From: Deltaproteobacteria bacterium
GTDB taxonomy: Bacteria; Myxococcota_A; Polyangia; JAAYKL01
Assembly: GCA_016935665.1 (NCBI GenBank)
Contig: JAFGQN010000129.1
Span: 1 to 39,784, forward strand
DNA: 39,784 bases
Reading direction: 5' to 3'
A model generated the notes under the pieces. It was given only the letters and a program-made list of their open reading frames with translations. It was not told the DNA's origin and searched no databases. The translations under genes and the position numbers were made by a program. This document shows, piece after piece, positions 15,550 through 26,854 of this stretch (position 1 is the first letter of the stretch; each line of letters starts with the position of its first letter).

Positions 15550-17949
15550 TTGTTCCCCAAAACTGTTCCTATTTTTGTAATTCTCTTAATCATTGCCTTT
15601 ATGCTGATGACGACGTCCATCTTTGCCAGGAATCTTCCCCGACAATCGATACAGGTGTCTTTGGCTAAAGAAATACCTCACATTGATGGCCTATTGAATG
15701 ACTCCGTTTGGCAGCAGGCCACGTTCTTTTCGGCGTTTTCGCAGCAAACGCCCACACCTTTCGAAACGCCCTCGGTAAAAACCGAAATCGCTGCCGCATA
15801 CAGTGCCGACACATTGTACGTGGCGGTGCGTTGTCATGGCGACAGCGCGGAGGTGATCTCCCGATTTGTGCGCAGAGACCGAGACGGGGATTTTGACAAG
15901 GTGGAACTTATCCTGAGTCCCATGAACGACGGCGTCACAGCCTTCGGTTTTATTGTGAATCCGGATGGTATGATGCAGGACGGATTGTGGAGTGATGACA
16001 CTGTGTTCGATCGCAACTGGGACGCCACATGGGAAGTGGCCACCCGCCGTGCCCCGGGTTACTGGAGCGCGGAATTCGCCATTCCATGGGACCAGCTCAG
16101 ATTTTCGGGCCAATTGACGGAGATGGGATTTCAGGTGAAACGCTGGCAGGCCAGCCGCCACGAATTGCTTGTGTTCAACCCCAGGCCACGGGGTGCGAAG
16201 GGAGAAGTATCGCGACTTGGGCGTCTGACCGGATTTCCAAAGCTGTCCCCGCGACTTCCCTTTTCAATGAAACCGGAGCTTGTTCTCAACTATCTGCACA
16301 AGGATGACGCGTCGGAGCAAACGTCCCCGGAAGGCGGCTTCTTTGGCGTTGGCGGGTATGTCAAGGCGGGGGTGGCGTCGGGGTGGACTCTGGATTTGGC
16401 CCTGAAACCGGATTTTGGTGAAGTGGAGCAGGATGCGGCCCAAATCAATCTTTCCAGCATCGAAACTGTCTATGCGGAAAAACGCCCGTTCTTCCTTGAA
16501 AATCGCCAAATGTTTGAGACCCCCATATCGCTTTTCTACAGCCGTCGTCTGGGCGCGAAACCGCCTAAACCCGATGTGGATGACAACGAGACAGTGGTTG
16601 AGGTTCCGCTCAATACTCCCATCGTCATGGCATCGAAGCTTTCCGGCACATCCGCGAATGGGAACTACATGGGATTGATGCATGTACTCTCGGCGCCCAC
16701 CCGCGTGTGGGTTAAAAATGATGATACGGAACGAAAGCGTCGGGAAGACGCCACGTTCTGGACGCACGACAGTGTATTGCGCATCGGCAAACAGTTTAAG
16801 AACGGCAGCGACATTGGATTGCTGGCCACCGGACACATCCCTTTGAACCATGCAAATGCCGCATTTGCCGGCGGCGGAGACTGGAATCTCTTTTGGAAAA
16901 AGAAGGAGTACGTCTTTAAAGGGCAAATTGCCTGTTCGTCCGTTCAGGATGAAGATGCCGACAATTTCGATACAGGAATGGGAGTTATGACCCGCATTGG
17001 ACGCCAGAGCGGCGATTATTTCAGGCCCTACCTGCAATACGAATATCGCAGCGTGGATTTCGATATAAATGCGCTCGGATATCTCGACCGAAACGACATC
17101 CACAAATTAACGGCGTCATTCGATGTGCTGCTCACCGAAAAACGCAAACTGATTTATGAATTCTATACAGGTATGCAGTTTTATCAGAACTGGAATACCG
17201 ATGGTCTCAATCTGACCAGGTCAATGACGTTGTATGGAAATATCAAATGGAGAAATCGCATGTGGACGTACTTTGGCGCGTCTGCCAAACTCAGCCACTA
17301 CGACGATGTGGAGTTTTCCGATGGCCCTCCCCTTAAACGAATCCCAGGCATTCTGGGATGGGCAACGCTGACGACACCCGCGGAGAAACCCGTGGGGGCC
17401 AGCGTTGAATGGAATACAGGCACAGATGATACGGGCTACTATTTTATTTTCAAGCCTGCGTTGCTGGTGCGCTGGGGGCGACTGGAACTGGAGCTGAACT
17501 ACCGACTGGTGCGTGCAAAGGATCGCGAATCCTATGCGGATAAATTTACAAAGGATGATGAAAAAATCTATATTGTGTCAAAGCGAAACCTGCTGGAGTC
17601 GGATATTGGTCTTAAAACCACAGTGGCGCTGGCCCAGAATATCTCCTGGGAACTCAATACACAGCTACTCGCCTCCAGGGCGCACTATCACGATTTCAGG
17701 CGACTTTTGCCAGACAGTCGTGAAGTGGCCACCAATTATTCCGACAATCCAGATTTTGGAAAAACCATCTGGCGGTTGCAAACGCTGCTGCGATACGAGT
17801 TTCTTCCCCAGTCGGTGCTTTATTTCATGTATAGTCGCCAAAGCAACGGCGAACTGGACGCGGCCCCCTACTCCATAAAGCGCACCTGGCAAACATTCAA
17901 TCAATCCACCGAACAGCGCTTCCTCATCAAAGCCGGCTATTTGTTTTGA
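15550..17949 (+). CDS. DUF5916-type outer-membrane protein with N-terminal CBM9-like domain
   Basis: A 799-residue secreted protein. The signal peptide (about 1-27, ending SIFA) requires a TTG start at 15550, since the next in-frame ATG (15601) would cut it and a stop lies at 15529; there is no good Shine-Dalgarno sequence. Residues 35-220 match the CBM9-like fold that opens DUF5916 proteins (HIDGLLNDSVWQ, LYVAVRCHGD, GYWSAEFAIPWDQLRF). The remaining 570 residues resemble the DUF5916 region (PDFGEVEQDAAQINLS, EKRPFFLEN) and continue as strand-rich sequence ending in Phe, as outer-membrane barrels do. Carbohydrate binding or surface attachment is possible but unproven. It stands alone, convergent with mepA. 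Confidence 0.85.
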   Translation: MFPKTVPIFVILLIIAFMLMTTSIFARNLPRQSIQVSLAKEIPHIDGLLNDSVWQQATFFSAFSQQTPTPFETPSVKTEIAAAYSADTLYVAVRCHGDSAEVISRFVRRDRDGDFDKVELILSPMNDGVTAFGFIVNPDGMMQDGLWSDDTVFDRNWDATWEVATRRAPGYWSAEFAIPWDQLRFSGQLTEMGFQVKRWQASRHELLVFNPRPRGAKGEVSRLGRLTGFPKLSPRLPFSMKPELVLNYLHKDDASEQTSPEGGFFGVGGYVKAGVASGWTLDLALKPDFGEVEQDAAQINLSSIETVYAEKRPFFLENRQMFETPISLFYSRRLGAKPPKPDVDDNETVVEVPLNTPIVMASKLSGTSANGNYMGLMHVLSAPTRVWVKNDDTERKRREDATFWTHDSVLRIGKQFKNGSDIGLLATGHIPLNHANAAFAGGGDWNLFWKKKEYVFKGQIACSSVQDEDADNFDTGMGVMTRIGRQSGDYFRPYLQYEYRSVDFDINALGYLDRNDIHKLTASFDVLLTEKRKLIYEFYTGMQFYQNWNTDGLNLTRSMTLYGNIKWRNRMWTYFGASAKLSHYDDVEFSDGPPLKRIPGILGWATLTTPAEKPVGASVEWNTGTDDTGYYFIFKPALLVRWGRLELELNYRLVRAKDRESYADKFTKDDEKIYIVSKRNLLESDIGLKTTVALAQNISWELNTQLLASRAHYHDFRRLLPDSREVATNYSDNPDFGKTIWRLQTLLRYEFLPQSVLYFMYSRQSNGELDAAPYSIKRTWQTFNQSTEQRFLIKAGYLF

Positions 17950-17998
17950 AATATGAATATCCGATTAAATAGATGGGCAGCAGCAATCGCCCTCTGGT

Positions 17999-18844
17999 TC
18001 ACAGACCTTCAAGCGCCAGGGCCATCAACTGGTGGTCAGAAGGCAACACGCTCGCGGGAGGTGGGGTCTGTTTTTCTTTAATCCAGGGCCAGATGGGTTT
18101 GCGCTGTTCGCAGGCGGGCGCGACATCCACTGGCGGGCAGAAAATACGCACGTGAAAATGATCGTTGTGAATGGCGCTGTCTTTGGGCTGATGAAGGATC
18201 ATCGACGCTTTCTCAATCAGTTCCACATCTTTTCCGGCAGCCAGCGCGTATGCCAGCAGTCTGGCTTTGAGCCCTTTGCTTATAAAAATCCACTGGATGT
18301 CGGCATGGTTTGATGACAGCAACGCTTCAACCACCGCCCAGTTTTTGGGCGTGTCAAAGTAGGCGACCGCGTGGTCTCCAACCGCAACGCCCAAGGCATC
18401 GTGTTTGGCCAAAACAAATTCGCGGGTACTTTTTTTTTTAGGATTTCGCACAAAAAAAGCCAAATCCACGTCCATCCCAGTGCGATGGGAGTGATGCCCC
18501 GATATTCGGCCTCCTCCGTCACCGCTTAAATCCCTTACTTGCAGAACGCTGCCAGGATATGCCGATGAGACATCCCTGGCCACATCTTCCACCAGCGCCG
18601 TCAATGCCAGGGAACCATATCGCCTGTCTCTCTGATGATAAAACGCATACCCATCTGCGCCCTCGGCCGGCAGCGCACGGCCCCCCACCAGCACGCCGTT
18701 TGACGTACTTCCCACCGGCCCACCTGCTTCAGATGTAATGGCCATCCAGGGCGTACACCCCGACAGCAGTGTTCCTGCGGCAACCAACATGCACACCAAA
18801 ATGCCACAAACAGACTGAAAACATGGATAATCCCAGCGGAACAT
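17999..18844 (-). CDS. mepA: Penicillin-insensitive murein endopeptidase (MepA family), lipoprotein
   Basis: LAS-type zinc peptidase (family M74) that cleaves D-Ala-meso-DAP cross-links in peptidoglycan. The 281-residue protein has a lipoprotein signal ending LLSGC (Cys30). Zinc-ligand motifs are visible: SHRTGMDVD gives His120 and Asp127, and DHFHVR near the C-terminus gives His229/His231, as in E. coli MepA, together with the FCPP end of the domain. The lipoprotein anchor differs from the soluble periplasmic E. coli enzyme and would place it on a membrane leaflet. Convergent with the DUF5916 gene (49 nt apart) and divergent from the TrpD-like gene. Confidence 0.9.
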   Translation of the reverse strand: MFRWDYPCFQSVCGILVCMLVAAGTLLSGCTPWMAITSEAGGPVGSTSNGVLVGGRALPAEGADGYAFYHQRDRRYGSLALTALVEDVARDVSSAYPGSVLQVRDLSGDGGGRISGHHSHRTGMDVDLAFFVRNPKKKSTREFVLAKHDALGVAVGDHAVAYFDTPKNWAVVEALLSSNHADIQWIFISKGLKARLLAYALAAGKDVELIEKASMILHQPKDSAIHNDHFHVRIFCPPVDVAPACEQRKPIWPWIKEKQTPPPASVLPSDHQLMALALEGL

Positions 18845-19031
18845 ACCGAATTTTTAACCCCATCTGTCCGGGATTGCAACCGTATTTGGATTTCGGCATA
18901 AGCAGCGTGCTTAAGGGGCAACTCCCGGATTGACATTCATCTTATTATGCGCAACACAGATATGCGTAATCGTTTTACATAAAATATCAAAATTCGTTCT
19001 CAATATCGGCGAAATCGGCGAAAGGTTCATT
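18845..19031. other. Divergent intergenic region mepA / trpD-like gene
   Basis: A 187-base gap that should carry both promoters. A perfect TTGACA occurs at 18930-18935, but no -10 element lies at a proper distance. AAGCA/TGCTT forms a small dyad at 18899-18911. Nothing more can be supported. Confidence 0.3.
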
Positions 19032-20108
19032 ATGCCTAACGAAACACGTCTTAAACAATTTGGTGAAATTATTACCACACTTCAGCAGGGGAAAAACCTC
19101 ACGCGAAAACAATCTGCCTCGGCCTGGAAGGAAGTAATCGAAAATACGCAGCCCGAACTTCATCAGGGCGCGTTTCTGGCGGCACTCTCCATGAAAGGAG
19201 AAACCGAATCTGAAATTGCCGGAAGCTACGACGCCATTTATCAATCCGATACGCAGAAAGTCGACCTGTCCCATCTGGATGCCGTTGAGAACTGTGGAAC
19301 CGGCATGGATACGCTTAAAACATTTAACATCAGTACCGCCGCGTCCATTGTTGCGGCCGCAGCGGGCGTGCCCATGGCCAAACACGGCGCCAGGGCCATC
19401 ACGTCCCAATGCGGTACCGTGGATGTGCTGGAGCAACTGGGCGTGGATGTTGAATGTGATGTCCAGACTGTTCAACGAAGCATTGAAAGCGTAGGTATCG
19501 GCATCTTCAATGGAATGAGCGCCAATGTTCACCCCGAGGCATTGTTTCGAATTCTGTCGCAAATCCGATTTGGCTCCACCTTGAATATCGCCGGTTCCCT
19601 CGCCAGTCCAGCCAGCCCCAGATTGGGGGTTCGCGGCGTGTGGTCTCCCAAAATGGTCCGTAAAACCGCTGCCACCATGGCCACCATTGGCTATCGTCGG
19701 GCGCTGGTGGTATTTGGATGGAACGATTCCCGTGATGCCGGCATCGATGAGTTTTCCACCATGGGTCCCTCTCTGGTCGCTGAAGTGCACGAAGATGGCG
19801 CCATTGACGAATACGAAATCACCCCCGAAGAATTCGGTATTCCCCGCGTGGCCTACAGCGAAATCGCAGCGGCTGGTAATGTTGTAGCAGCGGCGCGGAT
19901 TGTGCGCAGTGTTCTGGACGGAAATGGTACGTCTGCCCAGAGGGACATTGTCTGTCTGAACGCCGCTCCGGTGCTGCTGGTGGCCCAAAAAGTGGAAACA
20001 CTCAAAGAGGGAATCGACCTGGCGCGTCGCACCATCAACGACGGACTGGCAGCACAGAAGCTGAACGACTGGGTGGCCAACCAACAACGCGTCTGCAAAA
20101 CCGCATAG
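19032..20108 (+). CDS. TrpD-like phosphoribosyltransferase (atypical)
   Basis: A 358-residue member of the anthranilate phosphoribosyltransferase (TrpD) fold. It keeps TFNIST (97-102), the AKHG segment and the Mg-binding pair Asp239-Glu240, so phosphoribosyl-diphosphate chemistry is plausible. It departs from TrpD where the acceptor binds: GTGGD is GTGMD (89-93), KHGNR is KHGAR (117-121), and GPLxNPA is GSLASPA. The Asn lost in KHGNR contacts anthranilate in known TrpD structures, so the acceptor may not be anthranilate. The ATG at 19032, with AAAGG upstream, removes 34 unlikely residues of the longer frame. Only 6 nt separate it from a UbiA-type prenyltransferase gene, and no other trp genes are present. 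An annotation as plain trpD would be unsafe. Confidence 0.8.
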   Translation: MPNETRLKQFGEIITTLQQGKNLTRKQSASAWKEVIENTQPELHQGAFLAALSMKGETESEIAGSYDAIYQSDTQKVDLSHLDAVENCGTGMDTLKTFNISTAASIVAAAAGVPMAKHGARAITSQCGTVDVLEQLGVDVECDVQTVQRSIESVGIGIFNGMSANVHPEALFRILSQIRFGSTLNIAGSLASPASPRLGVRGVWSPKMVRKTAATMATIGYRRALVVFGWNDSRDAGIDEFSTMGPSLVAEVHEDGAIDEYEITPEEFGIPRVAYSEIAAAGNVVAAARIVRSVLDGNGTSAQRDIVCLNAAPVLLVAQKVETLKEGIDLARRTINDGLAAQKLNDWVANQQRVCKTA

Positions 20109-20114
20109 TTTCCC

Positions 20115-21038
20115 ATGCGCCATTCCACAGTTCAAACGTTCAAATACTGGTGGCTGGCATCCCGAACGCCATCCGTTGTAAAGATCCTGTTCCCCATCAT
20201 TGTTGGGCTCAGCGCGGGCTTTTCCCATACAGGGCGAGTGCGTCCCGCATATATCGCCTTGGCAATGCTGTTTGGCTGGTTCAACCAGCTCATCATCATT
20301 TTCTTTAATGACGCCGCAGATTACGAAGCCGACATTCACCATACCAACGCGTTTCCAAAGTTAATCGATCCCCGGGTACTTCCCAACCGGTGGCTTAGCC
20401 GAACGCAGATTTTTTTTGCGGGAATTATCGCCGCATCTTTAATGGCGATGGTCACCGCTATTGCCTGGCTGGGATTTCAACGTCCCTTCGCCCCGCTCTT
20501 CTTTGGCGCATCGGTAACATTTTTATGGGCCTATAGTTTTCCCCCCATCAAACTCAATTATCGCGGCTTTGGCGAATTGCTCGAAATGACAGGTGTGGGC
20601 ATCATTTTGCCATTGCTGGGATATTACTTCTACACAGGCACCTTTTCGCTTCCAATGGCAACCATCATCCCGGTTGCGTTGCTGTCTTTTGCCGGGTCCA
20701 TTTCAAGTACGCTGAAGCATCAGCCCGCCGACGCCGAAACCGGAAAACGCACATTGTCGGTCATATATGGCCCCAAAATCGCAAGGGTCGTTCTGTTTAC
20801 CGCAACGGTTCTGGGAATGCTGTCCACCGTTGGCCTGATGTTCACGGGTGACATTCACCCGGCCATACCGGTGATCACTGTGGTATTGCCCTCATTTTTT
20901 GTCTGGCGAATGGCAAAGACGTTTCATCAGGCCACCACCGAACACCTGGCAGCATTGAAAGCGTTTAAAACAGCCCTGAACAACATCACATACCTGGTGC
21001 TTGCAGGTCTGACCATCGGCCTTATATGGGCGCGCTGA
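20115..21038 (+). CDS. UbiA-superfamily prenyltransferase (MenA-like)
   Basis: A 307-residue integral membrane protein with about eight to nine hydrophobic segments. The first polyprenyl-diphosphate/Mg motif is intact (Asn65, Asp66, Asp69, Asp73 in FNDAADYEAD). The second resembles MenA's (ADAETGKRTL), but the position of its first Asp is His202 instead of Asp. MenA attaches a prenyl chain to 1,4-dihydroxy-2-naphthoate for menaquinone; the GKRTL motif supports that relationship. It begins 6 nt after the TrpD-like gene without its own clear ribosome-binding site, so the two are probably translationally coupled and share a pathway. It ends convergently with the Mrp operon. Substrate uncertain. 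Confidence 0.82.
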   Translation: MRHSTVQTFKYWWLASRTPSVVKILFPIIVGLSAGFSHTGRVRPAYIALAMLFGWFNQLIIIFFNDAADYEADIHHTNAFPKLIDPRVLPNRWLSRTQIFFAGIIAASLMAMVTAIAWLGFQRPFAPLFFGASVTFLWAYSFPPIKLNYRGFGELLEMTGVGIILPLLGYYFYTGTFSLPMATIIPVALLSFAGSISSTLKHQPADAETGKRTLSVIYGPKIARVVLFTATVLGMLSTVGLMFTGDIHPAIPVITVVLPSFFVWRMAKTFHQATTEHLAALKAFKTALNNITYLVLAGLTIGLIWAR

Positions 21039-21074
21039 TTATCTCGAATCACTCGCGCAGCAAAATCAGGGGAA

Positions 21075-21440
21075 TTATTTTTTTTCGGGCGAAGGCGTTT
21101 CTTTTTTGTCTGCGGGAGTCGGTAAAGGCCATTCGTTTGAGAGCGTTTTTTTGTCGAGCGGTTCTCCGGCGCGAATGGCGGCGCGGGCAATGAGGTGACT
21201 TCCCACCGGAGCGGTTAGAATGAAAAAGACAATGGCCACGACACACCGGGTCACAACCCCCACTTCGCGGGCATCCAGCGCAACGGCCAGCAGGATGAAG
21301 GCAACTCCCAAAGTGGACGCCTTGGTGCTGGCGTGCAACCGCTGGTACAAATCCGGCAGACGCACAACGCCAATCGCGGCAACCAGCATGAAGAAGGCAC
21401 CAATGCTAAGCAGTATAACAACAATCCAATCAATCCACAT
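21075..21440 (-). CDS. mnhG: Mrp/Mnh cation-proton antiporter subunit G
   Basis: Small subunit of the Mrp (Mnh) Na+(K+)/H+ antiporter, 121 residues with three membrane helices. The family pattern is clear: GAFFMLVAAIGVVRLPDLYQRLHA early on, then STLGV and APVGSHLIARAA. The hydrophilic C-terminus (about 25 residues, Lys/Pro-rich) is variable. It is the last gene of the operon and overlaps mnhF by 11 nt. Convergent with the prenyltransferase gene, 36 nt apart. Confidence 0.93.
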   Translation of the reverse strand: MWIDWIVVILLSIGAFFMLVAAIGVVRLPDLYQRLHASTKASTLGVAFILLAVALDAREVGVVTRCVVAIVFFILTAPVGSHLIARAAIRAGEPLDKKTLSNEWPLPTPADKKETPSPEKK

Positions 21441-21705
21441 CGCCGCCCCCCGGGTCTCGGAGAATTAAAAGGGCGAAGCTGGCGGTGCCCACAAACGCCA
21501 CAATACCAATTCCAATGGCCACGTCAACCAGTGAATATTGGCTGGTCCACACCGCCTCCACTGCCATAAATCCAACAGCGAGAACAGCCAGCAAATCAAT
21601 TGCCACGACGCGGTTTGCCATGGTTGGCCCGCGAAAAACGGCTATTGTGGCAAGTAAAATGGCCAGCCCAAGTACAGCCTCAATAACGCCAAACATTGTT
21701 ATCAC
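21430..21705 (-). CDS. mnhF: Mrp/Mnh antiporter subunit F
   Basis: A 91-residue membrane protein with three hydrophobic helices and the MnhF pattern (RGPTMANRVVAIDLL, then DVAIGIGIVAFVGT). Part of the hetero-oligomeric Mrp complex in the cytoplasmic membrane. The start overlaps the mnhE stop by 4 nt (ATGA) and the end overlaps mnhG. Confidence 0.93.
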   Translation of the reverse strand: MITMFGVIEAVLGLAILLATIAVFRGPTMANRVVAIDLLAVLAVGFMAVEAVWTSQYSLVDVAIGIGIVAFVGTASFALLILRDPGGGDVD

Positions 21706-22211
21706 GCGTCACCTCCTGGCGGCTCACAGGGAAATGCGTCACGCACCAGCGACGCCAGTTCCATGGACACAGCAGCACGCACCTTGTCCGCGTCTTCGGC
21801 ATACATATCATGTACGTAGAGCACGGTGCCATCTTCGTTGGTATCGAGGGTCAGGCTTCCCGGTGTCAGAGTTATTCCGTTGGCCAGAACCGTTACACCC
21901 ACGTGGTCAAGCTGTGCCACCGGAACCGCCAGAATCCGGGGACGCGCACGGGCTGTGGGTGTCAATACGTCAAAGGTCACCCGCACACTGGAGCGCACCA
22001 GATCCACCATTTGATGAAGAATCAGACGAATCAGTGGAAAAAGTCGAATCCTTCGTTTTAACGTTTTGTTGGGGGTTGCCACCACAAATAATGTGAATGC
22101 GCCAACTGCCAGACCAATTAAGAACTGCCCCGCAGAGAGGCTTCCCTGCAGCATACACCAGAAACCAGCGAGAATAAGAATCCATCTTATGCGACTGATA
22201 ACCGGTGTCAT
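21702..22211 (-). CDS. mnhE: Mrp/Mnh antiporter subunit E
   Basis: A 169-residue subunit with N-terminal membrane helices (ILILAGFWCMLQG, FLIGLAVGAFTLFVV) and the conserved MnhE block LANGITLTPGSLTLD followed by VHDMYAEDAD. The frame is open to 22349, but the ATG at 22211 has GGGAGG upstream and overlaps the mnhD stop by 4 nt, as elsewhere in this operon, so the shorter protein is chosen. MnhE is needed for assembly and for activity of the full complex. Confidence 0.92.
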   Translation of the reverse strand: MTPVISRIRWILILAGFWCMLQGSLSAGQFLIGLAVGAFTLFVVATPNKTLKRRIRLFPLIRLILHQMVDLVRSSVRVTFDVLTPTARARPRILAVPVAQLDHVGVTVLANGITLTPGSLTLDTNEDGTVLYVHDMYAEDADKVRAAVSMELASLVRDAFPCEPPGGDA

Positions 22212-23707
22212 AATCGGCCTCCCAAAACAGCATGTATGTAGCCATTGGGATTCAACAACTGCAACGCGGCCTCTTCGCAAAAATGAAACAGGGGGCCGCT
22301 CATCAATCCAATGGCAATGGTAATCGCTGCCAACGCCAGCATGGGCCAAAGCCGCACAAACGAGCGCTGCTCCGGTGCGAGACGGAATCCGGAGGAGGGA
22401 TGATCTTTCCAGAAGGCTTCAATCCATATTTTAAACATGGAGTACAAAGTAAAGGCGCCGGTGGCCAATGCCGCCGCGACCACCCACCACAGCTCTCGCT
22501 CCACGCCGGCGGAAACAATTCCCAGTTTGGCAAAAAAACCACTAAACGGCGGAATGCCGCTTAGCGACAATGCGGGCACCAGGTACAACAGACCCAGCAG
22601 CGGCCAGGCCAGCCACATGCCGCCGGTTTTGCGTAAATCTTCCGAACCCGCGCAGTCGGCGGCGATGCCTCCCACCAGGAACAGGTTGCTCTTTACAACG
22701 ATATGATGACACAGATAAAAAACACAGGCGGCCAGCGCCAGCGGCGTTCCAATGGCAATCCCCACCACCATGTAGCCCACCTGACTGATGATGTGAAAAC
22801 TCAATATTCTGCGAATCCCCATTTGTCCTGCCGCGCCCAAAACGCCGGTAATCATGGTCGCCACCCCCAGCACCAGGAGAATTTCATGTCCCAGCACATC
22901 GTTGGGCATAATTAACGTGTGCAGTCGAATCAGCGCGAACACGCCCACTTTGGTGAGCAGCCCGGCAAACAACGCCGACACCGGCACAGAGGGCGTATGA
23001 TAACTTGCAGGCAGCCAGAAGAAGAACGGAAACATCCCCGCTTTAATGGCGAACGCGACCATGAACAGCAATCCCCCCAGGCGAAGCGGACCGGCGCGGT
23101 GCTCTGCAACCGCCTCCTGAGCAAGAATGGATATGTCAGCCATATTCAGCGTGCCGGCCTTGGCATACAACAGGCCCAATGCGGTGAGAAAAATCGTGGA
23201 ACTCATCAGATTTAATACCACATACTTTACCGCTCCCTCGGTTTGCTCCGCCTTGCCTTCGAGCACCAGCATAACAAAGCTGGACAGCAGCATGATCTCG
23301 AAGCAAACGTACAGATTAAACAGGTCGCCTGTAATAAACGCACCGGAAACCCCCATCAGTAAAAAATGCAGCAATGGATGAAATGCCGGGCTCAACGCGG
23401 ATTTGGGCAGACTGATCCAGCTGTACCATGCCGAAGCCGCACCGGTCAGCGCCGTGAGCAACACCATCACCGCTGCCAGACGATCGATGACCAGCGTAAT
23501 GCCGAATGGGGCCTGCCAGTTCCCCATGTTTGAAACCAGGTAATCCGAGCTGTTCACTTCCACCAGCAGCAGCAGTGCAACACCAATTTCCACTGCGCTG
23601 CCCACAAGCGAAAATCCCCGCTGCAGCACTGCCATTCGCCGCAGCAGTGTACAGACCGCGGCTGTGACAAGCGGTACCAACATGGGAGCTGCGACTAAAC
23701 CATTCAT
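22208..23707 (-). CDS. mnhD: Mrp/Mnh antiporter subunit D
   Basis: A 499-residue homologue of the proton-pumping subunits of complex I (NuoN/NuoM type), with about 14 membrane helices. Key ion-path residues of the family can be placed: Glu137 in NLYVCFEIMLLSS and Lys222 in FAIKAGMFPFFFWLP. With MnhA it forms the ion-translocating core. Overlaps mnhC by 1 nt and mnhE by 4 nt. Confidence 0.95.
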   Translation of the reverse strand: MNGLVAAPMLVPLVTAAVCTLLRRMAVLQRGFSLVGSAVEIGVALLLLVEVNSSDYLVSNMGNWQAPFGITLVIDRLAAVMVLLTALTGAASAWYSWISLPKSALSPAFHPLLHFLLMGVSGAFITGDLFNLYVCFEIMLLSSFVMLVLEGKAEQTEGAVKYVVLNLMSSTIFLTALGLLYAKAGTLNMADISILAQEAVAEHRAGPLRLGGLLFMVAFAIKAGMFPFFFWLPASYHTPSVPVSALFAGLLTKVGVFALIRLHTLIMPNDVLGHEILLVLGVATMITGVLGAAGQMGIRRILSFHIISQVGYMVVGIAIGTPLALAACVFYLCHHIVVKSNLFLVGGIAADCAGSEDLRKTGGMWLAWPLLGLLYLVPALSLSGIPPFSGFFAKLGIVSAGVERELWWVVAAALATGAFTLYSMFKIWIEAFWKDHPSSGFRLAPEQRSFVRLWPMLALAAITIAIGLMSGPLFHFCEEAALQLLNPNGYIHAVLGGRL

Positions 23708-24060
23708 CAGTGGCCCACCTCATCGAGACGATCGGTGTTGTTCAGCTCATCGATGTCATCATGTCCCAATACGCGCATACAGCGATACGCCAGGGCCAAC
23801 GCGAATCCCAAAAGGGCGAACCCGATTACAATGGCCGTTAGAATGAAAGCCTGTGGCAAGGGATCTGCTGCGTGAGCAGACAATGTTGCAGCACCCTCAG
23901 CGATAATGGGGACCTCTGTTCCGCGCAGTCCCGACGCCACCAGGATAAGTAGATTGGTGGCATGGCCCAAAAGAGCGATGCCAAGCAGAACCTGCAGCAA
24001 CCGACGCTGCAGCAGCAGATAGACGGCAGATGCATAGCAGATACCAATCGCAATGGACAT
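23707..24060 (-). CDS. mnhC: Mrp/Mnh antiporter subunit C
   Basis: A 117-residue, three-helix NuoK-like subunit (LLQRRLLQVLLGIALLGHATNLL, then PLPQAFILTAIVIGFALLGF, both diagnostic). The PQALVLTAIVI-type motif is shared with NuoK. The loop between helices 2 and 3 is unremarkable and the tail is acidic. It shares a base with both mnhB and mnhD. Confidence 0.94.
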   Translation of the reverse strand: MSIAIGICYASAVYLLLQRRLLQVLLGIALLGHATNLLILVASGLRGTEVPIIAEGAATLSAHAADPLPQAFILTAIVIGFALLGFALALAYRCMRVLGHDDIDELNNTDRLDEVGH

Positions 24061-24554
24061 TAAGACTTCGATGGGGCGCCTCCTTCTACAGAATCTGTCT
24101 TTGCCGGGGTGGCGCCCGTTCTATCCGGGGCCAAAGGAGCGGCTTCCTCGATTTCGAGAGCGAACGTGCTCACCGCGCCGACCACGACGAGATACACACC
24201 AATATCAAACAGAAGCGGCGTTCCAGCTTTAAAATAAAAAAGCCCGACATCCGCTTTCAGCCACACGGCTGTTAAAAACGCTTTGCCGGTCAACGGTCCG
24301 ATAAGTCCAGCCACAAGAGCGACCAGCAATCCCAGAGCGATGAGGGTTGTTGGGTGCAGACGCAACAGTCGCCGTGCCTCGGTGGGGGTCTCGGCCAGCG
24401 CCACCAGGATAACCGCGGCGGCAGCCATCAGGCCTCCGGCAAATCCGCCCCCCGGTTCATCGTGGCCTCTCAGCAAAAGAAACAGGGATACCACCACTAA
24501 CAATGGCACCAGCCAATGCTGCATGACGCGTAAAATAATGGAGGGTAATTTCAT
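24060..24554 (-). CDS. mnhB: Mrp/Mnh antiporter subunit B
   Basis: A 164-residue subunit with four membrane helices and the MnhB pattern (LLRGHDEPGGGFAGGLMAAAAVIL, then TPLLFDIGVYLVVVGAVST). The C-terminal 25 residues are hydrophilic and Ala/Pro-rich. The start overlaps the mnhA stop by 4 nt. Confidence 0.94.
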   Translation of the reverse strand: MKLPSIILRVMQHWLVPLLVVVSLFLLLRGHDEPGGGFAGGLMAAAAVILVALAETPTEARRLLRLHPTTLIALGLLVALVAGLIGPLTGKAFLTAVWLKADVGLFYFKAGTPLLFDIGVYLVVVGAVSTFALEIEEAAPLAPDRTGATPAKTDSVEGGAPSKS

Positions 24555-26854
24555 TGCACCGGTTCCTTAGTGTTGCCGGATAGCATCTCCGGATTGTGTT
24601 TTCGAAGCTTCTGCAGACTGCCCACCAGCACCCCAACCCCCAGCGCAGCAATCCCAAGAACGATGATTTCACCAAACGTATCGAAACCGCGAAAATCCAC
24701 AAGGATAACATTTACCACGTTATGCCCATGCCCTTTGGTCAACGCATTATCGCCGTGCCAGGCGCTGATTGGCGCGGCGTAGTCGGTGCTGAGTGCGACC
24801 AGTGTCATTACAGACATTGTAAATCCCACCAATACAGCAATTGCAACTCGCCCTATCTGGTACCGCTTTTTCGTGATGCGAAAATCCGGAAGATGTCGAA
24901 AGCCGATGACCAGGATCACCACAGACAAAATCTCCACCAAAAACTGCGTCAACGCCAAATCCGGGGCCTGACTTGCCAGAAAGAACAATGTGACCCCCAT
25001 GCCCATTGCCCCCAACGCCGCAATGGCCGGCAAGCGCCTTCGGGCAAGCGCTGTCACCACTGCGGACACGGCAATCACTGCTGCAATTATCACATCGATA
25101 ATAGGCACTTTGCGAACGACATCCACATCAATAGGCGCCGCTTCAATGATCCATACTGAAAGCAAAAGCACGCAGGCCACCACAACGATGGTCCCCAAAT
25201 ACATGGTCAAACTGCCATTTTGTAAAATTCTGGTCACATTTCTGCCAAACCCAACCGTCCCGTTCCAAATGGCGTCGAAAATACGTGGACCGGAAGGAAG
25301 CGCAGGACAAAAAGCGCCAAGCGCAGTGCGTTTCCAAAATGCGAGCCCCCCCCAAAAAACAGCCGCCGTGCTTAGCAGCAATGGCAAATTCCAACCATGC
25401 CACAAACTGAGATGAACCGGTGTGACCTCCAGACTGGTTACTGCCGGGCCAACGATATACCTTTCCAGTAATCCAGGCGACACCCCCAAAATCAGCCCAA
25501 GCGAACTGATGACCACCATGGGGACCCGCATGGACCACGGCGCTTCGTGGGCATGGGACGCCAGCTCCCGTTTTTTTCCAAATGCAGGAATCAGGATCAC
25601 ATTTGCCGCCACCAGTACAAATGCCATTGCCAGCACGGTGATCAGCCCCGCGACCCAGGGCGCGTAGTTCATCCCCGCCCCCAGGGCATATTCCTTGGCG
25701 ATAAACCCGAGCATCGGTGGAATCCCAACCATGGACAGCCCTGCAATCACCCCTGTCACTATGGTCACAGGCATCTTCTGTGCAAGACCGCCCAAACGCC
25801 TGATGTCACGGGAATGAACCGCATGATCAATACTGCCCGCGACGAGAAAGAGAGGCCCTTTATAGCAGGCATGGGCCAGCAGAAACACCACCATCGCCGT
25901 CATTGATTTATCGGTGCCAATGCCAATCAGACCCACCATGATGGCCAACGCACCAATGGTGGAATACGCCAGGAGGGCCTTGAGGTCGGTGGCCCTGGGC
26001 ACCGCCAGGATTACAAGTATCATTGTTGCCGCAGCGGTAATCACCAGGGTGGGCGTCCAGGCGGGCAGTTCACCAAGGACGTGATGCATGCGCGCCAGCA
26101 AAAATACGCCCGCTTTTACCATTGTGGCCGAATGAAGATATGCACTGACAGGCGTTGGCGCGCGCATGGCCCCCGGCAACCAAAACGAAAACGGAAACTG
26201 CGCACTCTTGGTAAACGCGCCGAGGCAGATGAGCACAAAGGCGCCGAGCGCAAACGGATGGTCGTGCATCGCCGGCATTTCGGACAGGTTCCACGTGCCT
26301 GCCTGCCGCCCCAGAATGACCAGACCACCCAGCAACGCCAGGCCCCCTATCGCAGTAACCAGCAATGCCTGTTTAGCCCCGACACGCGATTCTTCATCCC
26401 GATGATTGGTGCCAATGAGCATAAAGCTCGTAAAGCTGGTCATCTCCCACGAGACAAAGAGCATCAGAATATTGTCCGCCACGCTAACGCCAATCATCGC
26501 AGCCATAAACAACAGCAACCAGCCAGTGATGGACCCCGTCCGTTCATCCTTGCCGAGATATCCCCCCGCATAACTCATGATACCCCAACCGATTCCGGAA
26601 ATAATCAGCGCCATAAAAATGCCAAAGGAATCCGCCCGCAGTGCAAAGGTCACCCCCAGCTGTGGCATCCACTCCCGCGTCACGGTCTGCGGATGCCCCA
26701 AAATCGCATCGGGTAACATCAGCAGCAAAAAAACGAAAACCGTCAATGCCCCAAGACTTGCCACCCGAGGCCACCACGCGCCCAGCCTGCGCCACGCCAA
26801 CGGCGCCACCACGGCGAGCAAAACGGGTATCGCCAGAGTCAACTCCAGCAGCAT
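24551..26854 (-). CDS. mnhA: Mrp/Mnh antiporter subunit A
   Basis: Largest Mrp subunit, 767 residues, NuoL-like over the first 480 and carrying the C-terminal MnhA-specific region (DUF4040-like, about 590-690) found in true MrpA. Family key residues are visible: Glu137 in FVSWEMTSFTSF, Lys216 in FTKSAQFPF, His241 and Lys247 in YLHSATMVKAG. It heads the seven-gene operon A-B-C-D-E-F-G, the standard order for group 1 Mrp loci. GGAGG lies 4 nt before the ATG. Mrp complexes exchange Na+ or K+ for protons, giving alkali and salt tolerance. Confidence 0.95.
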   Translation of the reverse strand: MLLELTLAIPVLLAVVAPLAWRRLGAWWPRVASLGALTVFVFLLLMLPDAILGHPQTVTREWMPQLGVTFALRADSFGIFMALIISGIGWGIMSYAGGYLGKDERTGSITGWLLLFMAAMIGVSVADNILMLFVSWEMTSFTSFMLIGTNHRDEESRVGAKQALLVTAIGGLALLGGLVILGRQAGTWNLSEMPAMHDHPFALGAFVLICLGAFTKSAQFPFSFWLPGAMRAPTPVSAYLHSATMVKAGVFLLARMHHVLGELPAWTPTLVITAAATMILVILAVPRATDLKALLAYSTIGALAIMVGLIGIGTDKSMTAMVVFLLAHACYKGPLFLVAGSIDHAVHSRDIRRLGGLAQKMPVTIVTGVIAGLSMVGIPPMLGFIAKEYALGAGMNYAPWVAGLITVLAMAFVLVAANVILIPAFGKKRELASHAHEAPWSMRVPMVVISSLGLILGVSPGLLERYIVGPAVTSLEVTPVHLSLWHGWNLPLLLSTAAVFWGGLAFWKRTALGAFCPALPSGPRIFDAIWNGTVGFGRNVTRILQNGSLTMYLGTIVVVACVLLLSVWIIEAAPIDVDVVRKVPIIDVIIAAVIAVSAVVTALARRRLPAIAALGAMGMGVTLFFLASQAPDLALTQFLVEILSVVILVIGFRHLPDFRITKKRYQIGRVAIAVLVGFTMSVMTLVALSTDYAAPISAWHGDNALTKGHGHNVVNVILVDFRGFDTFGEIIVLGIAALGVGVLVGSLQKLRKHNPEMLSGNTKEPVQ

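Follow-up and report, generated by a model that had tools for sequence, protein, structure and literature searches.

The window analysed here (the whole stretch of 39,784 nucleotides) carries on its forward strand a gene for a TrpD-like protein, followed immediately by a gene for a UbiA-like protein. We term the TrpD-like subfamily KTR, a name coined in this analysis. The two genes and their diagnostic features are as follows.

19032..20108, + strand: KTR gene, 358 aa; a TrpD-fold phosphoribosyltransferase-like protein of a non-anthranilate subfamily, as judged from the ORF, profiles and tree.
19296..19310, + strand: GTGMD (canonical GTGGD), the phosphate-binding loop, read from the sequence.
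19380..19394, + strand: KHGAR (canonical KHGNR), read from the sequence; the Asn contacting anthranilate is lost.
19746..19751, + strand: Asp239-Glu240, the retained Mg-binding pair (78/78 in KTR).
20109..20114, + strand: intergenic gap of 6 nt from stop to start; translational coupling is likely.
20115..21038, + strand: UbiA-superfamily prenyltransferase-like gene, 307 aa; MenA-like, far under the MenA cut-offs.
20307..20333, + strand: UbiA motif 1, NDAADYEAD, an intact NDxxDxxxD in the sequence.
20718..20720, + strand: codon of His202, giving motif 2 as HxxxD for DxxxD in the sequence; His in 3/3 of the trio of genomes that share the gene pair.

Upstream of the pair, positions 15550-17949 (+) encode a DUF5916 protein with a weak CBM9 match (Pfam). 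The downstream genes on the opposite strand, at 21075-26854 (-), resemble an operon for a multi-subunit Na+/H+ antiporter (Mrp/Mnh), in which MnhG was confirmed by Pfam and the remaining genes were read from sequence. A promoter and terminator scan of the window returned scores below the shuffle means.

The KTR product matched PF00591 at 206 bits, also matched PF02885, and scored 278 bits against the curated TIGR01245 trpD model (cut-off 199); public pipelines would therefore name the gene trpD. It shares with TrpD a fold family, a length and the PRPP/Mg residues, and the window protein is 30-34% identical to the TrpD of its own genome and to TrpDs of the same bacterial family. An alignment was assembled from 78 KTR rows (the window and 77 of 80 loci) and 27 canonical TrpDs, taken from relatives and from the window genome itself. 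The three loci without a row are L090, whose gene is split, and L072 and L085, which a simple ORF caller missed. Residue 92, the fourth of GTGGD, is Met in 78/78 KTRs and Gly in 27/27 canonical TrpDs, and column 120 holds Ala or Ser in every KTR against Asn in every canonical sequence. Column 175 is Leu in 78/78 KTRs and Arg in 27/27 TrpDs, while column 181 is Gly or Ala in 78/78 and Arg in 26/27. All 78 KTRs further differ from the canonical TrpDs in having Glu86 in place of Asp, an Asn-Gly insertion at 160-161 and Ser at column 189, the Pro of GPL. N160, R173 and R201 are further invariant positions. The window protein carries the full KTR signature of ENCGTGMD, KH[GA][AS]R and FNG. The KTR gene at L090 (4058-5164), from a Desulfobacteria MAG, is broken into two ORFs by an apparent frameshift.

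One of columns 175 and 181, from both of which the Arg has gone in KTR, presumably corresponds to R193 of M. tuberculosis TrpD. In that enzyme the anthranilate carboxylate is held by an Arg of helix alpha8 (R193) and a loop Asn (N138), according to passages of PMC9835598. No aligned KTR row retains this Asn and Arg. The PRPP/Mg residues (NxST and DE), on the other hand, are all retained in the window protein (N99, S101, T102, D239 and E240), and across KTR N99, S101, D239 and E240 are present in 78/78 rows and T102 in 77/78. With the anthranilate-holding residues changed throughout and the PRPP/Mg residues kept, KTR reads most naturally as a PRPP-using enzyme that acts on another acceptor. The alignment thus upholds an earlier note on this DNA, which had reported the loss of the acceptor-side Asn and of a Gly of GTGGD together with the retention of the PRPP/Mg residues; the change of Arg175 to Leu, that of Pro189 to Ser and the extra Asn-Gly at 160-161 were not mentioned there.

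In a quick tree of 97 rows, the 78 KTRs fell on one side of a long branch and 19 TrpDs, the canonical rows holding HGN, on the other (SH-aLRT 100). On this sequence evidence, KTR is a separate, ancient family apart from canonical TrpD, and it lies outside trp operons. Among the best 80 of 109 KTR relatives found by a genome-wide scan (47-74% identity), the bacterial hosts are Myxococcota-type and other deltaproteobacterial MAGs, Bacillota, Chloroflexota, Kiritimatiellota, Omnitrophota and Aquificota, and the archaeal hosts are ANME-1, Methanothrix and Methanomassiliicoccales. Cultured hosts include Fuchsiella alkaliacetigena (L116) and Syntrophomonas. Within the phylum of the window KTR is rare: it was found in 1 of 377 sampled genomes and, at 60% identity or more, in 3 of 59 relatives of the window (the window genome, G000, together with G001 and G007), which rules it out as a common gene of that phylum. 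The KTRs of this trio group in the quick tree with those of Kiritimatiellota and deltaproteobacterial MAGs (SH-aLRT 85). Their rarity and this grouping suggest horizontal gain, and the window lineage probably acquired its KTR in that way.

The window genome (8.16 Mb in 249 contigs) possesses a canonical TrpD on contig C214, scoring 401 bits against the trpD model, in a cluster that we take to be TrpE-TrpD-TrpC/F-TrpB, the trp neighbours being named from their sequences. It also has a men cluster on C90, with MenB at 471 bits and MenA at 191 bits against TIGR00751 (cut-off 102). Neither window gene is therefore the housekeeping copy. The separate trpD and menA that the earlier note proposed to look for are thus both present, and its view of the TrpD-like protein as atypical is borne out by the separate clade, found in the phylogeny that it had suggested.

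The UbiA-like protein belongs to the UbiA superfamily, with 71 bits against PF01040 (gathering score 34.2); like other members of this membrane prenyltransferase family it has an intact NDxxDxxxD, and UBIAD1 was its sole PDB match. It is not, however, a MenA by profile, since the best NCBIfam MenA model gave 55 bits against a cut-off of 264. These scores and the men cluster elsewhere in the genome rule out a real MenA. Only the first of the two Asp-rich motifs is complete, motif 2 being HxxxD in 3/3 of the trio; its first position is Asp in more distant UbiA relatives, in a comparison of relatives read in frame with minus-strand relatives left out. The His202 reported in the earlier note thus stands, as does the 6-nt spacing of the genes. 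The constancy of Met92 and of Ala/Ser120 in KTR (78/78 each) and of the UbiA His in the trio argues that none of the three is a chance change. Two further UbiA proteins are encoded in the window genome, a MenA-like one on C206 and one on C167 (L154:7730-8641). The latter passes the model for decaprenyl-phosphate phosphoribosyltransferase (248 bits, cut-off 234), an enzyme that to our knowledge is unusual outside actinobacteria.

Among the 59 relatives, the closest UbiA homologues (46-56% identity) occur in the same three genomes and adjoin KTR each time, the two ORFs being 9 nt apart in L157 and overlapping in L039; the remaining neighbours of the pair differ across the three. Both genes appear constrained from sequence comparison, with dN/dS of approximately 0.12 for KTR and 0.23-0.33 for UbiA, at saturated dS. 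By tblastn, a window-type UbiA was found in 2 of 80 KTR loci, in addition to the window, which rules out an ancient KTR-UbiA pair. The UbiA-like partner is real but local to one bacterial family. The shared pathway that the earlier note thought conceivable, phosphoribosylating and prenylating an aromatic or quinone-like substrate, stays conceivable for the window lineage but finds no support in the wider family. There KTR is instead paired with a zinc dehydrogenase, in many loci also with CobT, and cobalamin riboswitches control the genes.

This usual partner, a zinc-dependent MDR dehydrogenase, adjoins KTR in 75 of the 80 loci, all of which were covered by tblastn. The five exceptions are the two loci of the UbiA lineage (L038, L039), two at contig ends (L048, L050) and L104, where a riboswitch precedes KTR and a CbiR-like gene follows it. 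CobT (18 loci) or archaeal CobT (17) is present in 35/80, and any of six cob genes in 37/80. Around canonical trpD, no MDR or cob gene was found in any of 28 loci, with flanks of approximately 1.5 kb except at L151. Example CobT and archaeal CobT proteins from KTR loci pass the NCBIfam cut-offs, and CobT looks standard (TIGR03160, 450 bits). The MDR examples scored best, below cut-off, with the NCBIfam models of threonine 3-dehydrogenase and inosose dehydrogenase, and the best structure matches were again threonine 3-dehydrogenase, along with polyol dehydrogenases. Two fusions join MDR to CobT (L099, L109) and one joins it to KTR (L115); a further candidate fusion, in L073, was ruled out because its upstream part is out of frame. 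KTR and MDR distances co-vary (Mantel r 0.87, n = 65, 0/2000 permutations), a correlation in which shared species history is not corrected for.

An Rfam scan of all 35 KTR loci with a bacterium named in the title, the other 45 of the 80 being archaeal, found a cobalamin riboswitch in 27 (in batches of 8/9, 9/10 and 10/16, with the window and L150 left out of the count). In 27/27 the next same-strand ORF after the riboswitch was MDR or KTR. The eight bacterial loci in which none was found are L038, L039, L051, L061, L068, L074, L077 and L108; five of these (L051, L061, L068, L074 and L077) have cob or btu genes beside them, and at L108 the contig begins inside MDR. A CbiR-like gene directly follows KTR in L067 and L104.

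Other genes recur around KTR. In L061 and L068 (Aquificota) the KTR/MDR run also contains genes for radical SAM proteins and BtuF-like genes, which might contribute additional steps to the module. L078:392-1345 (-) encodes a ribbon-helix-helix and weakly AIR-synthase-like protein near CobT and KTR; proteins of its cluster, c8, recur in seven further loci (L042, L044, L066, L083, L087, L094 and L116), mostly of ANME-1 and Methanolliviera. The protein may be a regulator, or may be related to alpha-ribazole kinase. In Methanothrix loci (L043, L052, L054, L055 and others) the genes after KTR keep a conserved order: an AI-2E family transporter gene, one for a MiaB-like protein and acetyl-CoA synthetase-like genes.

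The trio departs from this arrangement. MDR is absent beside KTR in the window, L038 and L039, and no MDR ortholog was found in G000, G001 or G007, in which the best matches reach 24-31% identity. No cobalamin riboswitch was detected in the window at the gathering score, nor a degenerate one before its KTR (17900-21200, E up to 10), and the Rfam scan gave none at L038 or L039. CobT is encoded in each of the three genomes. The window genome has a riboswitch-led cob operon, including CobT and a CbiR-like gene, which we take to comprise a TonB receptor, a CbiR-like TIM-barrel protein, CobU, CobT, CobS, CobQ, CobD, CbiB and Btu transport, several of these being named from their sequences. CbiR itself is described in passages of PMC7733943. 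KTR is not in this operon, and together with the missing MDR ortholog and riboswitch this means that the ancestral role may have been dropped in the trio.

BluB needs oxygen and flavin, and the bza enzymes comprise ThiC-like proteins together with tailoring enzymes. BluB exceeded its cut-off in 1 of 45 genomes, a set made up of 38 KTR genomes, the trio and four KTR-less relatives (41/45 KTR-bearing). CobT was found in 36 of the 38 KTR genomes (34 over cut-off) and not in G067, a small MAG, or G078. By comparison, it was found in 18 of the 59 window relatives, including all three KTR carriers, so that 15 of the 56 KTR-less relatives have CobT and do without KTR. Among 36 KTR genomes other than the trio, ThiC-family genes were missing from 8, single in 23 and multiple in 5. 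When 10 of 30 fetched ThiC-family loci were checked for identity, 0/10 reached the BzaB cut-off and 10/10 scored best with the ThiC model. A ThiC-family gene adjoins CobT in G089, tandem ThiC-family genes do so in G093, and G091 has a tandem pair; this coexistence of bza-like genes with KTR weakens the idea of KTR as a strict bza replacement. As most KTR genomes are incomplete MAGs, absences from them are soft, and some of them may carry BzaF.

The cobalamin riboswitches, the cob neighbours and the CobT fusions make a cobamide (B12-family) role of the KTR family very likely on genomic evidence. Two precedents bear on what that role might be. The anaerobic benzimidazole genes bzaABCDEF lie, according to parts of PMC8123684, in operons with cobT in anaerobic hosts, a lower-ligand context similar to that of the KTR loci; KTR and MDR nevertheless come from families other than those of the bza enzymes. 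Propionibacterium freudenreichii has a BluB/CobT2 fusion that both produces and activates the base, as described in PMC4657239, and this fusion of a base-supply enzyme to CobT recalls MDR-CobT in L099 and L109, with the difference that MDR is a zinc dehydrogenase. By analogy with these systems, and given that most KTR genomes lack BluB, the KTR family probably supplies the cobamide lower ligand.

We infer with moderate confidence that KTR is a PRPP-using TrpD-fold enzyme of cobamide nucleotide-loop assembly, acting with MDR and most likely forming or activating the lower-ligand base ahead of CobT in anaerobes. KTR would use PRPP to phosphoribosylate an acceptor that is not anthranilate, the zinc-dependent, polyol-type MDR would oxidise the KTR product or its precursor, and the outcome would reach CobT; a plausible order is KTR (PRPP and acceptor), MDR (oxidation), CobT. 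The window lineage would have gained KTR horizontally and lost its MDR partner and riboswitch, and KTR now presumably forms a two-gene operon with the divergent UbiA-like protein as a recent, lineage-specific partner. Given an intact KTR signature and a cob operon that is led by a riboswitch and includes CobT and a CbiR-like gene, it is most economical to suppose that the window KTR keeps its ancestral chemistry.

Two alternatives deny KTR any such chemistry. Its score over the trpD cut-off, and the name that pipelines would give it, might suggest a second, real anthranilate phosphoribosyltransferase. We consider this effectively ruled out by the separate clade, by the canonical TrpD that the genome's own trp operon encodes and by the replacement in 78/78 rows of both anthranilate-holding residues, whose roles are given in passages of PMC9835598. 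Parts of the same source describe TrpD2 proteins that keep the fold, have no PRPP-binding motif and bind DNA, a precedent for KTR as a non-catalytic protein of the TrpD2/YbiB type, and YbiB is a weak match of the KTR product. The YbiB model, however, gave 37 bits against a cut-off of 185, and with PRPP and Mg residues that are invariant or nearly so, KTR is highly improbable as a member of that group.

The other two alternatives concern what an active KTR does. The window KTR might have been recruited with the UbiA-like enzyme into a new pathway, much as the earlier note conceived, for instance one leading to an aromatic membrane compound that is phosphoribosylated or prenylated: the pair is kept in the window, L157/L038 and L039 with ORFs touching or nearly so amid differing neighbours, both genes appear constrained, exactly 3 of 59 relatives have both KTR and this UbiA and, L104 apart, no locus outside this lineage with sufficient flank lacks the MDR linkage. 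The unchanged KTR signature of the trio argues instead for the same acceptor, and no third pathway gene is conserved near the pair; such recruitment seems possible but somewhat unlikely. Alternatively, KTR and MDR may serve cobamide metabolism other than in base synthesis, through an alternative ribosyl donor, the recycling of alpha-ribazole phosphate during remodelling or another need of the nucleotide loop. The CbiR-like genes immediately after KTR in L067 and L104 agree with this, as do the coexistence of bza-like genes with KTR in G089 and G093 and an MDR that most resembles threonine 3-dehydrogenase and polyol dehydrogenases, a resemblance compatible with chemistry on a linker or sugar. 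Riboswitch control of this kind is, however, typical of synthesis and uptake, a standard CobT needs no new donor, and the BluB/CobT2 precedent, as PMC4657239 describes it, points to base supply. We regard a role outside base synthesis as possible but unlikely.

The reading that we prefer, a KTR that works with MDR on the lower ligand ahead of CobT, can tentatively be taken further. MDR and KTR could constitute an undescribed, oxygen- and ThiC-independent route in many anaerobic bacteria and archaea, in which PRPP and an aromatic or heterocyclic acceptor would yield a lower ligand, known or new, for CobT; in the window this route may have been re-plumbed via the UbiA-like enzyme, a prenylated or membrane-tethered ligand being one possibility. 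We found no description of the KTR-MDR-CobT linkage in the open-access literature, which is weak evidence of novelty; the parts are of known kinds, while both the KTR subfamily and the way in which the parts are combined appear to be new.

Since KTR passes a curated trpD model, mis-annotation would be systematic, and a genome may be recorded as having a tryptophan gene because of this locus. The lower ligand, according to parts of PMC6461909, is predictable for only 58% of predicted cobamide-producing bacteria. The riboswitch-controlled, CobT-linked MDR-KTR module is a candidate for part of this gap, in hosts that include syntrophs, ANME-1, Methanothrix and relatives of Dehalococcoidia, mostly without BluB.
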